Source: Acidimicrobiales bacterium
GTDB lineage: Bacteria; Actinomycetota; Acidimicrobiia; Acidimicrobiales; JAHWLA01
Reading direction: 5' to 3'
Length of the DNA stretch: 56,035 nucleotides
Assembly (NCBI GenBank): GCA_035536915.1
Contig: DATLNE010000048.1
Span: 1 to 56,035 of the forward strand
Position numbers and translations under genes: made by a program. Below the pieces are notes generated by a model. That model had not been told where the DNA came from. It ran no database searches and saw nothing but the letters and a program-made list of their open reading frames with translations. Positions 13,577-19,375 of the stretch are shown piece by piece; within the stretch, counting starts at the first letter, position 1; each line of letters opens with the position of its first letter.

Positions 13577-13601
13577 GCTTGATTGATGAGTCGAACATGT
13601 G

Positions 13602-13607
13602 TACGAT
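13602..13607 (+). promoter_or_regulatory. Putative -10 hexamer of the HNH gene
   Basis: TACGAT, 6 bases, then GTG 13614. It supports that GTG over the in-frame GTG at 13599, which would precede the hexamer. Confidence 0.4.
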
Positions 13608-13613
13608 CGGAGG

Positions 13614-14729
13614 GTGGTTGGAGAACTGCGGAACGTCGTCGAAAAGCTGGCAGTTCCGCTCGACGGCGACGCCTTGGCCGAGGTGCTGAAGCTGGTCGAC
13701 CTGCTCAACGCCAAGGTGTCGAGGGCGATCGGCGTTCGACGCCGAGGCACTGTGGGAGCTCGACGGAGCGACGTCGATGACGGCCTGGCTCCGACACCAC
13801 GCCGGCATGACGTCGAGCACTGCCAAGTCAACGGCCTCGACCGCTCGTCGTCTCCGAGAGCTACCAATGACCGCGGAGTACTGGTTGTCGGGGACCCTGT
13901 CGGGCGGCCAGGTGCTAGCGATCGTGCGCAATGCGACGCCGGAGTTCAGCGAACACGAGGCAACCGTCATCCCGGCGCTGATGGATCTGTCGGTAGTCGA
14001 CACCGCTCTGGCGATGCAGCAGTGGAAGTCGATGCTCGACATCGAGCCCACGTTCGAAAAGGGCGTGCACCTGTCCCAGACCTTGGACGCCAATGGGAAC
14101 TCACGGGCTCGCTCGACCCGCTGGGCGGCGAGACCGTGGCGACGGCGTTGCGCTTGGCCATGGTCGACGACCCCGACGTGTTGCCGTCGCAGCGCCGAGC
14201 CGACGCGCTGGTCGACGTGTGCAGGTTCTTTCTCGACCACCAGAGCGGTCGCCGCGGCGGAAGGCACCGCCCGCACCTCAACGTGGTGGTCGACTACGAC
14301 GCCCTGCTGGCCGGCAAGGGCGGCAGCTTCGTCGGTGGCGGGCTGCTCGACGGTGCGTCGGTGCAGGCGCTGGCGTGCGATGCGGCGATCCACCGGGTGG
14401 TCAGCGACGGCCGCAGCACGATCCTCGACTACGGCACGTCGACGCGCACGATCCCGGCCCCGTTGTGGTCAGCGCTCGTGCTGCGCGACCGGCACTGCCG
14501 GTTCGAAGGCTGCGACCGTCCGTCGCAGTGGTGCGAAGCGCATCACGTGATGCCGTGGCACGACGGCGGCACCACCAGCTTGGACAACCTGGTCCTCAAG
14601 TGCAGCCGACACCACCATTTGGGCCACCAACCGGGCTGGTCCGAGAAGCTGAAGCCCGACGGCACCCTGGTGATCACCGACCCACGAGGCCGCACCCGCA
14701 CCACCCGACCACCGGGCACGTTGGTCTGA
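13614..14729 (+). pseudogene. DUF222/HNH endonuclease gene with two compensating frameshifts
   Basis: The reading must change frame twice to follow the family. Segment 1 (13614 to about 13730) encodes VVGELRNVVEKLAVPLDGD and LNAKVSRAIG. Segment 2 (about 13732-14093) encodes FDAEALWELDGATSMTAWLRHHAGM, WLSGTLSGGQVLAIVRN and TFEKGVHLSQTLDANG. Segment 3 (about 14095-14729) returns to the first frame with LTGSLDPLGGETVATALRLA and an intact HNH domain: CRFEGCDRPSQWCEAHHVMPWHDGG, DNLVLKCSRHHH. The first shift is one extra base near 13731; the second looks like one lost G in the run at 14091-14093. GTG 13614 is chosen because TACGAT lies 6 bases upstream. It may be a real pseudogene or two consensus errors. 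This DUF222 family is multi-copy in actinobacteria. Confidence 0.8.
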
Positions 14730-14878: not shown

Positions 14879-14930
14879 GCTGAGTTGCCAGGTTGGGATG
14901 TAGCGGCGCCACAAGGGGCGACTCAGGCGG
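14879..14930. repeat. Degenerate second copy of the preceding hairpin
   Basis: TGAGTTGCCA and AGCGGCGC recur in the same order as in 14769-14797, and the right arm ends in GGCGACTCA. Pairing is imperfect. The copy reaches into the 3' end of the membrane-protein gene on the minus strand. Confidence 0.4.
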
Positions 14931-16068
14931 GAGCGTCGTTGCGGTCGCCCGCGGAGACGCCGAGGCCCACGACGGCGGCGCCGACGGCGAGCAGGCAGAG
15001 GGCGGTGCCGGTGGCGGAGTCTTCGAGGAGCGAGGCGACGGTGGCGGTGAGCGACAACGCCGCCGTGCCCGCCCCCAGCCACGCCACCAGCCGTCGTGTG
15101 GCGAACAGCCCGAGGGCGACGACCACCAAGCTGAACACCAGCGCCAAGGACGACGCCGTTGTGGCGCCCAGTCGAGGCCCGGCCGACAGCGAGCCCACGG
15201 CGGCGGCGGTGATCCCCACCACGAGGAACGCCGACGCCAGTCGCCGCAGGCGGGCGCCGTCGAGCACGAAGGCGGCCCCCAGGTAGAGGAGCGCAAACAG
15301 CATCGACACCACGGCGGGAGCGAGCGGCGGCTCCGGCGCGTCGAACTCGAAGTCCTGCGCCGCGATCAGGCGGGCGTCGCCCAGCGACTGCTCGACACCC
15401 GTCGTGGTGGTCGTCGACGGGAAACGCGGCCGCCCGGGCGGGGGCCGCGGGATCGTCATGGGCGGGTTGAGGCGCGGGTCGGGACCGAGGCGGGGCGGCG
15501 GGATTGTCTCGAACCCCGGCCAATCGTCGTCGGGCAGCAGGGGCACCGGGCGGTCCGGGATCTCCTGGGCCGGGATCTCACGGCCCGGGACCGGGCTGAA
15601 AGGGAAACCCACATCGTCCGGGATCGTCTGCGACAGCACGCCGACCCACAACGCGAACAACGCCAACCCGAGGAACACGCCGTGCCCGCGCGCAGGCCCG
15701 ACGGCGAACAACACCGACCACAGGAGCAAGGCCAGCAGGGCGGCGACGAGGACGTCCCCGTCGGACTCGACCGCGGCGGGGTCGTTGGCCAGGAGGAAGG
15801 ACAGGGGCAGCACCGCGCCCGCGGCCAGCACCACGCCCGCCACACCGAGGGCACGCGCCCGCTGCAGCACAGAAAGGGTGCAGCCGGCCAACAGCGTCAG
15901 AAGGGCCAGGGCCAACCCGGCGGCCCGAGCGTGGTCTTCGGGCACTTCGCCGTGGAGCAACGAGACCCCGAACAGCGCCACCAAGCCGCCGAGGGCGCCC
16001 AGCATGGCGTCGACGGTGGGTGGCCTGCGTTCGTCCGACAACCAGTGCGGCAGTGCGTCGTCCGGCAT
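14923..16068 (-). CDS. Polytopic membrane protein of unknown function
   Basis: 381 residues from ATG 16068. After the polar start PDDALPHWLSDERRPPTVDAM there are about four to five hydrophobic segments up to residue 155, a soluble Pro/Asp/Thr-rich stretch (about 160-245: PVPGREIPAQEIPDRPVP, then PPPRLGPDPRLNPPMTIP and TTTTT), and about five more segments to the end. I recognise no family. A TAnnnT hexamer (TAACGT, complement of 16076-16081) lies 7 bases before the ATG, suggesting its own leaderless promoter although the DUF2330-like gene upstream is only 16 bases away. Confidence 0.75.
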   Translation of the reverse strand: MPDDALPHWLSDERRPPTVDAMLGALGGLVALFGVSLLHGEVPEDHARAAGLALALLTLLAGCTLSVLQRARALGVAGVVLAAGAVLPLSFLLANDPAAVESDGDVLVAALLALLLWSVLFAVGPARGHGVFLGLALFALWVGVLSQTIPDDVGFPFSPVPGREIPAQEIPDRPVPLLPDDDWPGFETIPPPRLGPDPRLNPPMTIPRPPPGRPRFPSTTTTTGVEQSLGDARLIAAQDFEFDAPEPPLAPAVVSMLFALLYLGAAFVLDGARLRRLASAFLVVGITAAAVGSLSAGPRLGATTASSLALVFSLVVVALGLFATRRLVAWLGAGTAALSLTATVASLLEDSATGTALCLLAVGAAVVGLGVSAGDRNDAPA

Positions 16069-16075
16069 GCGCCGG

Positions 16076-16081
16076 ACGTTA
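16076..16081 (-). promoter_or_regulatory. Putative -10 hexamer of the membrane-protein gene
   Basis: TAACGT on the minus strand, 7 bases before the ATG at 16068. Confidence 0.4.
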
Positions 16082-16084
16082 CCG

Positions 16085-17194
16085 TCAGGCCACTCGCCGC
16101 CTGCGGGACCGGAGGGCGAGCACGGCAACGACGGCTGTGAGCAAGGCCGGCACCAGCAACGCACCCCACGGCGGCGAGGACGAGGCCACTTCCGAGTCCA
16201 CTGCCGCCTCGGGCACCGAGTCCGTCAGCACGACCGCCGTGGTGGTCGTCGTCGTCGCAACGGTCGTCGTCGTCGTGGTGGTGGCCGGCTGCTTGGGGCG
16301 AGGCAGTCCGGCGGCCAGGTGTGACGGGCGGTTGCGGCCCGAAGCATCCGCGGCGAGGTCGAAGCGCAGGGTCTCGGCCTGCGTGCGCACCGCGACCTTG
16401 GTCAGCCACATCTTCTGCGGCACCCACTCCATGCCCTTGTCGGAGCGCAGGTCGGCCAACAACGCGCTGGTGGCCTCGGCGTCGTGTACCACGTCGACCC
16501 CCTTTCGACCGAGCGGCAGCAGCGCCGGCCGCATCGGCGTCAGCAGGTAGACGTCGGCGTCGACCGGTTCGTCGGTGCCACGGCCCAACCCGAGGATGCG
16601 CAGGGGCACCCACGGGTTGCGGGTGGGAATGGTGAGGTGGATGGGCGTGCCGTCGCCCACTTGCTGGCCCCGCTCCTCGGCCGCCTTGGCGTCGAAGCGG
16701 GCGGCCATGAACACAGGACTGCGGAAGGCGTAGAACTCCAGCACCTCGGGGGCGTCGGGGGTGAGTTGGAACCCGTTGTCCTTGGCCCACGTCCCGACCT
16801 CACGGGCGCCACCCTTGAGGATGGTGATGTCGAGGGCGTCGATGCGCGTCTCGTAGACGACCATGGCGGACCCGGCGTTTCCCGCAGCCGTGCCCGCCAC
16901 GAACGAGTCGGCCGGCGGCTGCGTCTCCCGGTCGAGGCGCTGCAACGTCCAGTCGCCGCCCCGTTCCACTTTGGTGGGCACCGCGGGCAGCGGCACGATC
17001 GACCCGAACTCGGCGCCGCCGCCTGCGAACTGGAACGAGGTGACGTAGTGCTCGACCCCGTCGGCATACGCGGCAAGCGTGGCCGTGCGCAGTAGCCGAA
17101 CGGTCCCGTTGGGGGCGACGAGGCCGCCGCAGGCGGAGGCGGCGGCGGACGGCCAACCGAGGAACACGGCGAGGGCGACGGCGGCGATGCGCAT
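16085..17194 (-). CDS. DUF2330-like secreted protein with C-terminal anchor
   Basis: 369 residues: a signal peptide (1-20, ending SAAASACGG), a long extracellular domain, a Thr-rich linker (about 302-320), then one membrane span (about 340-360, WGALLVPALLTAVVAVLAL) and a basic tail RSRRRRVA. ACGGLVAPNGTVRLLRT at the N-terminus, FQFAGGGAEFGSIVPLPAVPTKVE, and LTIPTRNPWVPLRILGLG are characteristic of DUF2330 proteins, whose function is unknown. It diverges from the sigma factor gene at 17265 across 70 bases, so the two may share a regulatory region. Confidence 0.75.
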   Translation of the reverse strand: MRIAAVALAVFLGWPSAAASACGGLVAPNGTVRLLRTATLAAYADGVEHYVTSFQFAGGGAEFGSIVPLPAVPTKVERGGDWTLQRLDRETQPPADSFVAGTAAGNAGSAMVVYETRIDALDITILKGGAREVGTWAKDNGFQLTPDAPEVLEFYAFRSPVFMAARFDAKAAEERGQQVGDGTPIHLTIPTRNPWVPLRILGLGRGTDEPVDADVYLLTPMRPALLPLGRKGVDVVHDAEATSALLADLRSDKGMEWVPQKMWLTKVAVRTQAETLRFDLAADASGRNRPSHLAAGLPRPKQPATTTTTTTVATTTTTTAVVLTDSVPEAAVDSEVASSSPPWGALLVPALLTAVVAVLALRSRRRRVA

Positions 17195-17264
17195 GCCGGT
17201 TGGGGCGCAGAAGACATCGCTTCAACCGCCGGTTGATTCTGGGGGAACTCCGGCCCAAAGTGTC

Positions 17265-17813
17265 ATGGTGGGGGTTGAAGCGGTGCGCGCGGGCGGCGAT
17301 GTCGATCTCTTGGCGCGGGCGGCAGCCGGCGACCGCGACTCGGTGCGGGAGGTGCTCGACGTCGCCGGGCCGATCGTCTACGGGTTCGTGTTCGCCCGCG
17401 TGGGCGGTGATGCCTCGGTGGCCGAGGACATCGTGCAGGAGACGTTCGTGGAGGCGGTCCGTTCGGCTTCCACCTTCCGGGGCGACGCCGCGCTCACCAC
17501 GTGGCTGTGCGCCATCGCCCGGCATCGCATCGCCCGCCACTACGCCCGCGAGCGCAAGCAGGAAGTGGCCCGCAGCGCGCTCACACTCATCGACGACGAG
17601 GGCCAAGCCGCGGCGATCGACGAACGCGACGCGCTGGTGCGGGCCCTGGGCGCGCTCTCCGCCCTGCACCGCCAAGTGCTCGTGCTCAAGTACCTCGACG
17701 GCAAGAGCGTGAGCGACATCGCCGACGAGCTCGGGCGCACGCGCGTGCAGGTGCAGTCGCTGCTGCAACGCGCCCGCGACGGATTGCGTCGACAGCTCGA
17801 GGGCTCTGCGTGA
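17265..17813 (+). CDS. ECF-type RNA polymerase sigma factor
   Basis: 182 residues from ATG 17265; GTG 17283 with GGGGG about 9 bases upstream is an equally good start. Region 2 reads VYGFVFARVGGDASVAEDIVQETFVEAVRSASTFRGDAALTTWLCAIARHRIARHY, with the core-binding and -10-reading helices. Region 4 reads LHRQVLVLKYLDGKSVSDIADELGRTRVQVQSLLQRARDGLRR. No region 1.1, 3 or C-terminal extension is seen. Its stop overlaps the GTG of the next gene (GTGA), the normal position of an anti-sigma factor, so that protein is the likely regulator. Confidence 0.93.
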   Translation: MVGVEAVRAGGDVDLLARAAAGDRDSVREVLDVAGPIVYGFVFARVGGDASVAEDIVQETFVEAVRSASTFRGDAALTTWLCAIARHRIARHYARERKQEVARSALTLIDDEGQAAAIDERDALVRALGALSALHRQVLVLKYLDGKSVSDIADELGRTRVQVQSLLQRARDGLRRQLEGSA

Positions 17814-19375
17814 GCGACGAACTGTCGCCGTTGTTCGGCGGCCTCGGCGAGGCCCGCCCGCTCCCCGCCCACTTGGGAGAGCGGCTGGAGCGGGTGCTGG
17901 CAGCCGAGGCGGAAGCGGGCGTGGGCGCGCTGGCGACCGTCGACGCCCCTCGCCCGCTTCCCCCCCATGTGGTCGACCGCATCGAGGCGGCCATGATCGT
18001 CGCCGCCGAGATCGGGCTGCCCGACCACCTACGCCGCCGGGTGGAGCGCACGCTCGTACGCCGACAGCCGCGCCGCTACATTCGGCCCGCCCTCACAGCG
18101 GCGTCGATCATGGCCTTGGCCGCGGCGACGGCGCTGTTCCTGTCGGAGCCCACGTCCACACCCACCCAAGCCGTCTACGCGTCCGACTCCTACCTGTCGT
18201 CCGAGCCGGTGCTGGTGGACGACAACGCCGAGACGCCGCGGCGCGGGCTCGGCTCGCCCCGGTTCCTGTCTGCTGCATCGGCACCGACGGCGGCCGGTGG
18301 CAGCGCCCAGCCGGTGTCTGGGTTCACGCTGGCCCACCCGCCGCCGCCCTTCTACCTCTCGCCCTACGCCGCGCTGTCCCCGCCGTCGCTCGGGGGCAAC
18401 GGCGGCGGATTCCCCTCGCCGCTGCCGCCCCCGCCGCGCGCGCCGGTCCGAATCGGCATCATCGGCGGCGACCCCGTACAGGAAGCGGGCTTTCGGGCCT
18501 ACGTCTCCTTGGTCAATCGCTCCGGCGGCGCAGGCGGGCGACGCCTCGACCTCGTGCCCTTCCGCAGCGAGGGCACGGTGGCCACCGTCAACCTGGGTTC
18601 GACCTCGGTGGCGGACGCCTCGGGAGCGCCGGTCGGCATGCGGGCGCCGCTGCTCGAATCACTCGACGTGGCCGAGCCTGCCTTGCGCGGCGACGTCTTC
18701 TCGTTAACGGGAGTGGCGGAGCGCCAGGCCCGGTTGGCAGTCGACGCGTCCGGCGTGGGCGCCAACGAGACGGCGGTCGTCTACACCGCAATGGTGGGCA
18801 GCTTCGCCGGGCGCGTGCCTGACGCCTTCGAGTCGGCGCTGCGAGCTCGAGGCGCGCAGGTCGTGCGGGTGCAGTGGGACCCGCACAACCCGGCCCCGTT
18901 GGTGCCCGCCGCTGCCGCCTTCGTCAGCATCCCCGCGGCGGACGCCCGCTCGTGGCTGCACGCGGCCAAGGCGGCGGGGTACGACCCGCGGCGTGGCATC
19001 TGGGGCATCTGGTCGCTGGCCGACGACTCGCTCGTGGACGCCATGCCGAGCGACCTGCAGCTCTTGGCCCCCTATGCCTTTGCACGGGGGGACGAGCTGG
19101 CCGCGCTGGTGGACGCCACCGATCAGCCGCCGAGCGCACGGCTGGTGCACGGGTGGGTCACGGCCAAGTGGCTCGCCGTGGCCATCTGGTGGGCGGGCGA
19201 CGACCCCGGGCAACTGGGGTCGTACCTGCGCAACGGTCGCTTCGAAAGCGGCTTCGCCCCCGCGCAGTCCACGCGGGCGGACAGCAACGCCCGCACGCCC
19301 GATGCCGTCGTGCTCGTGCCCGAACACGGGCGCTTGGAGCCCAAGGGGCCGTTCCGCACCGACAAGGCGCAGTAG
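17810..19375 (+). CDS. Membrane-anchored periplasmic-binding-domain protein, candidate anti-sigma sensor
   Basis: 521 residues. Cytoplasmic part (1-90): three copies of a short motif, PLPAHLGERLERVLA (18-32), PLPPHVVDRIEAAM (49-62) and LPDHLRRRVERTL (70-82). One membrane span follows (about 92-112, RPALTAASIMALAAATALFL). A Pro/Gly/Ser-rich stalk (about 113-211) leads to a type 1 periplasmic-binding domain (about 212-505) opening with VRIGIIGGDPVQEAGFRAYVSLVNRSGGAGGRRLDL, like Leu/Ile/Val-binding proteins. The GTG overlaps the sigma factor stop. No permease or ATPase gene is nearby. I infer a sensor that binds a ligand outside and controls the sigma factor inside. I see no known ZAS or RskA anti-sigma domain, so that role is not proven. 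Confidence 0.8.
   Translation: MSDELSPLFGGLGEARPLPAHLGERLERVLAAEAEAGVGALATVDAPRPLPPHVVDRIEAAMIVAAEIGLPDHLRRRVERTLVRRQPRRYIRPALTAASIMALAAATALFLSEPTSTPTQAVYASDSYLSSEPVLVDDNAETPRRGLGSPRFLSAASAPTAAGGSAQPVSGFTLAHPPPPFYLSPYAALSPPSLGGNGGGFPSPLPPPPRAPVRIGIIGGDPVQEAGFRAYVSLVNRSGGAGGRRLDLVPFRSEGTVATVNLGSTSVADASGAPVGMRAPLLESLDVAEPALRGDVFSLTGVAERQARLAVDASGVGANETAVVYTAMVGSFAGRVPDAFESALRARGAQVVRVQWDPHNPAPLVPAAAAFVSIPAADARSWLHAAKAAGYDPRRGIWGIWSLADDSLVDAMPSDLQLLAPYAFARGDELAALVDATDQPPSARLVHGWVTAKWLAVAIWWAGDDPGQLGSYLRNGRFESGFAPAQSTRADSNARTPDAVVLVPEHGRLEPKGPFRTDKAQ

Follow-up and report, generated by a model that had tools for sequence, protein, structure and literature searches.

The question raised by this locus is what is encoded by the gene that overlaps the end of an ECF sigma factor gene, and how its product may act on that sigma factor. 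The window, which here means the whole analyzed stretch of 56,035 nucleotides, comes from the genome of an Acidimicrobiales bacterium (G000, 3.2 Mb), which holds 41 matches to sigma-70 region 2. The two genes of the pair lie as follows.

17265..17813, plus strand: ECF sigma factor, 182 aa, with Pfam Sigma70_r2 and r4_2 and NCBIfam sigma70-ECF
17810..19375, plus strand: putative membrane anti-sigma factor, 521 aa; gene pair kept across relatives

The first protein has sigma-70 regions 2 and 4 only and scored above the cut-offs of PF04542, PF08281, and TIGR02937 (Pfam Sigma70_r2, E=2e-13; Sigma70_r4_2, E=2e-12), which places it among the ECF sigma factors. The second gene starts with GTG and overlaps the stop of the sigma gene by 4 nt. 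Its product, hereafter called the partner, consists of RPLPxxLxxRLE-type repeats, one membrane span, a Pro/Gly stalk, and a C-terminal type 1 periplasmic-binding (PBP) fold, in this order. An earlier note on this DNA had described a sigma factor joined to a membrane protein of this architecture, and the gene calls, repeat scores, Pfam matches, and fold comparison agreed with that description. As the same note had stated, transporter genes do not accompany the pair; none were found around it (approximately 13 to 24 kb of the window), and no ABC genes adjoin it. In this neighborhood, the partner lacks the permease and ATPase genes that lie close to the gene of an ABC transporter binding protein. 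In the same region, a DUF222/HNH-type gene is read in two frames (13599-14729 and 13777-14550, both on the plus strand) and looks frameshifted, with its N-terminal part predicted in one ORF and its HNH part in the other.

The inner end of the partner, its span, and its stalk were divided into the following features.

17855..17905, plus strand: repeat 1, residues 16-32, RPLPAHLGERLERVLAA; conserved in all members
17951..18001, plus strand: repeat 2, residues 48-64, RPLPPHVVDRIEAAMIV; conserved in all members
18011..18061, plus strand: repeat 3, residues 68-84, IGLPDHLRRRVERTLVR; present in a subset of members only
18080..18142, plus strand: single membrane span, residues 91-111, from hydropathy and a model helix
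18143..18439, plus strand: Pro/Gly/Ala-rich stalk, residues 112-210, unstructured in the model

Repeats 1, 2, and 3 scored 35.8, 35.5, and 30.3 bits, respectively, against a repeat matrix built from the family with the window's own three units included, and the best of 5,000 shuffles scored 20.1. In the full-length model, which is of low confidence (mean pLDDT 45.6), they form helices 20-35, 52-67, and 72-83. The three repeats claimed earlier are therefore present in the window protein, but only two of them are kept family-wide; the third is optional and was found in the window species, G014, G038, and, by eye, G515. Span 91-111 has its basic flank toward the N terminus of the partner, which is therefore predicted to lie inside.

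No anti-sigma domain in Pfam or NCBIfam, where divergent class I members can be missed, matched residues 1-90, and a profile search of PDB chains with the N terminus gave chance-level matches only, with no sequence match to CnrY. By sequence, the inner end is thus without a match among the known anti-sigma families. Residues 1-90 contain no cysteine, and the Hx3Cx2C zinc motif, which is optional in class I, is absent; the inner end is therefore not a zinc-binding anti-sigma domain. When 395 class genomes were searched with a profile of the first ~120 residues, scores above 54 bits came from family members only, and the next match reached 26.6 bits. One candidate match to the N-terminal profile, at L076, was set aside because by eye it resembles an ordinary RskA-type protein.

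Two conserved helical repeats precede the membrane span in all members, which is a CnrY-like plan, with helices 20-35 and 52-67 taken from the low-confidence model and a third helix in some members. In the class II system CnrY-CnrH, the anti-sigma factor likewise has a short inner two-helix segment followed by one membrane span, and helix 1 of CnrY binds sigma4 while helix 2 binds sigma2 (PMC7406223). The helices of the partner, unlike those of CnrY, repeat one motif, and its outer part is a large sensor domain. CnrY appears to be the nearest mechanistic analogue of the inner end, by likeness of plan and not of sequence. The class I factors (RseA, RskA, RsiW, and zinc-binding members) are also membrane proteins encoded beside an ECF sigma factor, but the partner has neither a class I Pfam match nor the zinc motif, and its model has three short helices. 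In addition, class I outer domains vary between groups and are usually well conserved within a group (PMC7406223), whereas those of the partner family differ among members.

At several loci of the class (L048-L052, L055-L057, L059, and L069), the gene after another ECF factor encodes a VOC/glyoxalase-like protein that begins with a PxxxFAxxLRxRL helix. This helix is possibly a related one-helix sigma-binding element. In the proteins encoded beside unrelated ECF factors (VOC and others), the N terminus is only weakly like the repeat, and the likeness is clear in 1 of 14 (L069).

Orthologues of the sigma factor were sought across the order, class, and phylum. They were found in 21 genomes including that of the window, and the 20 others are 55 to 77% identical to the window sigma. 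Against a family profile that contains the family itself, scores in the class-wide first set were above 270 bits for family sigmas and below 102 for other ECF factors, and members added later scored 229 to 281 bits. The next gene carried the two-helix element in all 20 genomes in which it was visible (G510 excepted), in at least two classes, and a membrane span followed the element wherever the sequence continued. Homologues of the partner standing apart from a sigma gene, a finding that the earlier note had named as telling against its proposal, were looked for and not found in the genomes searched. An ABC operon partner, which the note had named on the same grounds, was likewise not found among the genes adjoining the pair.

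The outer part of the window protein was assigned by profile and fold.

18440..19372, plus strand: extracellular type 1 periplasmic-binding domain, first lobe shortened; Peripla_BP_6, fold Z 11.3 and 13.8

The C terminus scored above the Peripla_BP_6 cut-off (E=2e-8), and each of five homologous outer domains matched this family (best E=3e-9). Folded alone (mean pLDDT 56.2), the domain aligned with 4m88 over 249 residues (Z 13.8, rmsd 6.6), and Foldseek with the full-length model led to type 1 solute-binding proteins. Residues 211-480 thus have the fold of LivJ and AmiC, from which the partner differs by its shortened first lobe, its N-terminal span anchor, and the lack of an adjacent transporter. 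The model has no helix between strands 2 and 3 of lobe 1, and the Peripla_BP_6 match spans profile positions 81-332 of 343 only. Because of these two features, ligand binding cannot be assumed, and the small ligand proposed earlier is only weakly supported by comparison.

Among the relatives, three different outer folds were found on the same inner base: nutrient-binding (PBP), immunoglobulin-like (IPT/TIG), and propeller. Seven proteins carry the type 1 PBP domain (window, G038, G037, G377, G370, G358, and G515); contig or locus ends truncate those of G037 and G515, the latter of which had no Pfam match and was assigned by alignment to its kin. IPT/TIG domains (PF01833) occur in 10 genomes (G104, G015, G090, G563, G569, G516, G047, G123, G521, and G546), nine assigned by Pfam and G546 from close similarity to G521. 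The beta-propeller PF09826 occurs in two (G656 and G642), both from another class, where this sigma type goes together with a secreted beta-propeller anchored in the membrane (L179 and L180). The outer domain of G014 lies beyond the contig end. In the sigma tree, in which deep forks are weakly supported, most TIG and most PBP forms stand apart, and at least two sensor changes are needed. The identities of sigma and N terminus covary (r=0.88, 36 pairs from nine proteins), a value confounded by shared ancestry; such covariation is expected of partners and equally of any coinherited genes.

Since the inner helices stay with the sigma factor under different outer domains, they are the candidate for sigma binding, and the outer domain is the candidate sensor. 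From these sequence comparisons, the inner end is most likely the sigma-binding element, the outer domain is the best candidate for an exchangeable sensor, and the partner is very probably a cognate anti-sigma-type regulator. The anti-sigma role proposed earlier from gene position is thus well supported by comparison, in that the pair is always kept and the repeat element is retained under changing outer domains.

The region upstream of the sigma gene contains two promoter-like sites and a divergent pair of genes.

17230..17259, plus strand: promoter-like site of the sigma operon, CGGTTGA-N17-CCCAAA, 5 nt ahead of the sigma ATG
17199..17228, minus strand: promoter-like site facing the divergent DUF2330 gene, CGGTTGA-N17-CCCAAC
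16085..17194, minus strand: DUF2330 protein, predicted sigma target; PF10092, E=2e-15; signal peptide and C-terminal span
14923..16164, minus strand: polytopic membrane protein after DUF2330, from the ORF list; start uncertain

The two sites stand back to back and are the sole matches to the signature in the 56-kb window; G038 has the same divergent arrangement between sigma and DUF2330. In 14 of 21 genomes, CGGTTGR-N17-CMCHAA or a near match precedes the sigma gene, always with a spacing of 17 (13 of 19 genomes, then G656), and the first half was CGATTGA in two. The signature score was reached by none of 27 unrelated ECF genes and by 7 of 5,000 shuffles. Upstream of sigma in G515, G563, G516, G047, and G123, no clear signature was found; the score was low in G510, and the spacing was 16 in G642. 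From the back-to-back sites, the sigma factor is predicted to be autoregulated and to have DUF2330 among its targets. The polytopic membrane protein is possibly the second gene of a DUF2330 operon, and in G014 its homologue is directly divergent from the sigma gene. DUF2330 is followed by a cupredoxin-like gene in G377 (L039 7357-7866) and, at a different locus, in G014 (L105, about 2480-2880), and this recurring pair hints at a metal or redox link.

In a search of nine genomes for further regulon members, pattern counts were near the reversed-pattern control overall. With the strict spacing of 17, eight sites were found outside the sigma and DUF2330 loci, compared with two at spacing 16 and one at spacing 18. 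The regulon part is suggestive only, and individual targets should be taken as leads.

The order of the genes, their architecture, the conserved inner element and promoter, and the exchange of outer domains were observed, whereas sigma binding, inhibition, sensing, and release are what we infer. We consider it probable that the pair forms a membrane-gated transcription switch of the following kind. When no signal is present, the inner end of the partner would hold the ECF sigma factor by its two conserved short helices, which probably contact one sigma domain each, as in CnrY. The outer domain carried on the Pro/Gly stalk, a type 1 PBP domain in the window species and an IPT/TIG or beta-propeller domain on the same base in relatives, would sense something beyond the membrane. 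Sensing would release the grip on sigma, either through regulated proteolysis or through a change of conformation. The freed sigma factor would then act at CGGTTGR-N17-CMCHAA promoters to transcribe the operon to which it belongs and the DUF2330 gene divergent from it.

What the outer domain senses is read in two ways, and we give each a somewhat less than even chance. The PBP domain may bind a small molecule directly and make the partner a one-protein receptor for the nutrient of a branched-chain-type ABC transporter, switching sigma on or off. The LivJ/AmiC-type fold is consistent with this, as is the signature found 147 to 149 nt before an orthologous secreted-protein gene in G000 and G014, with a diverged spacer in G014. 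In G000, this gene heads an operon with a branched-chain-type permease and ATPases (L149 2213-9052, G000:C8), which is distant from the sigma pair and a candidate regulon link only. The secreted-protein family was found in seven of seven PBP-lineage genomes searched and in neither of the two TIG-type genomes searched. However, the ABC-operon promoter is confined to one genus, and no such site was found ahead of the genes for homologues of the secreted protein in the other genomes. The incomplete lobe 1, the overall pattern counts close to the control, and the sister proteins with non-PBP domains also argue against a small ligand.

The outer domain may instead sense a protein or an envelope polymer, possibly the DUF2330 product. 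The exchange with IPT/TIG and beta-propeller domains, which are as often macromolecule binders, is consistent with this possibility, and the other strict signature sites precede genes for secreted or membrane proteins. In addition, DUF2330 adjoins four PBP-type pairs (G000, G038, G377, and G370) and is absent from both TIG genomes checked. On the other hand, DUF2330 is at another locus in G014 and was not found in the incomplete genomes of G037 and G358.

It is improbable that the partner is a positive factor which tethers or activates sigma. The evidence for inhibition is linkage, but in operon position, in topology, and in having a short helical segment inside, the partner is like known ECF anti-sigma factors (PMC7406223). 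A chance overlap of two unrelated genes, with the partner as an orphan binding protein, is hardly credible given that the pair is kept in every visible case, across classes, while the outer domain changes.

Several parts of the membrane-gated switch have counterparts in other systems. RsgI proteins control SigI-type, not ECF, factors, and we know of no PBP, TIG, or PF09826 domains in their family. Direct sensing by an anti-sigma factor, put forward earlier as a new principle, has precedents: RsiV of Bacillus subtilis is itself a receptor and binds lysozyme (PMC4183432), and the RsgI family of Clostridium thermocellum forms an anti-sigma set sensing different substrates (PMC12203970, PMC4711584). 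Both the outer and the inner domains of RsiV differ from those of the partner. The novelty seems to lie in the inner element, in the use of a PBP fold as the sensor of an anti-sigma factor, and in the swapping of three outer domains over a common base. No report of PBP or TIG domains on anti-sigma factors was found in the literature covered; that coverage is incomplete, and novelty is therefore judged with reserve. It is tentative, and rather doubtful, that the family is a new class of ECF anti-sigma factors in which two repeated helices are the fixed base for complete outer receptors and the PBP form is switched by a nutrient-type ligand closing the cleft.

If confirmed, the inner end would be an anti-sigma element without sequence match to described families and of a peptide size suited to study. 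Evolution would then have provided an experiment of its own, with a single sigma factor and a single promoter type rewired to three receptors. Trans-membrane signalling to ECF factors would become testable through natural domain swaps, and the system would provide parts for ligand-responsive switches.
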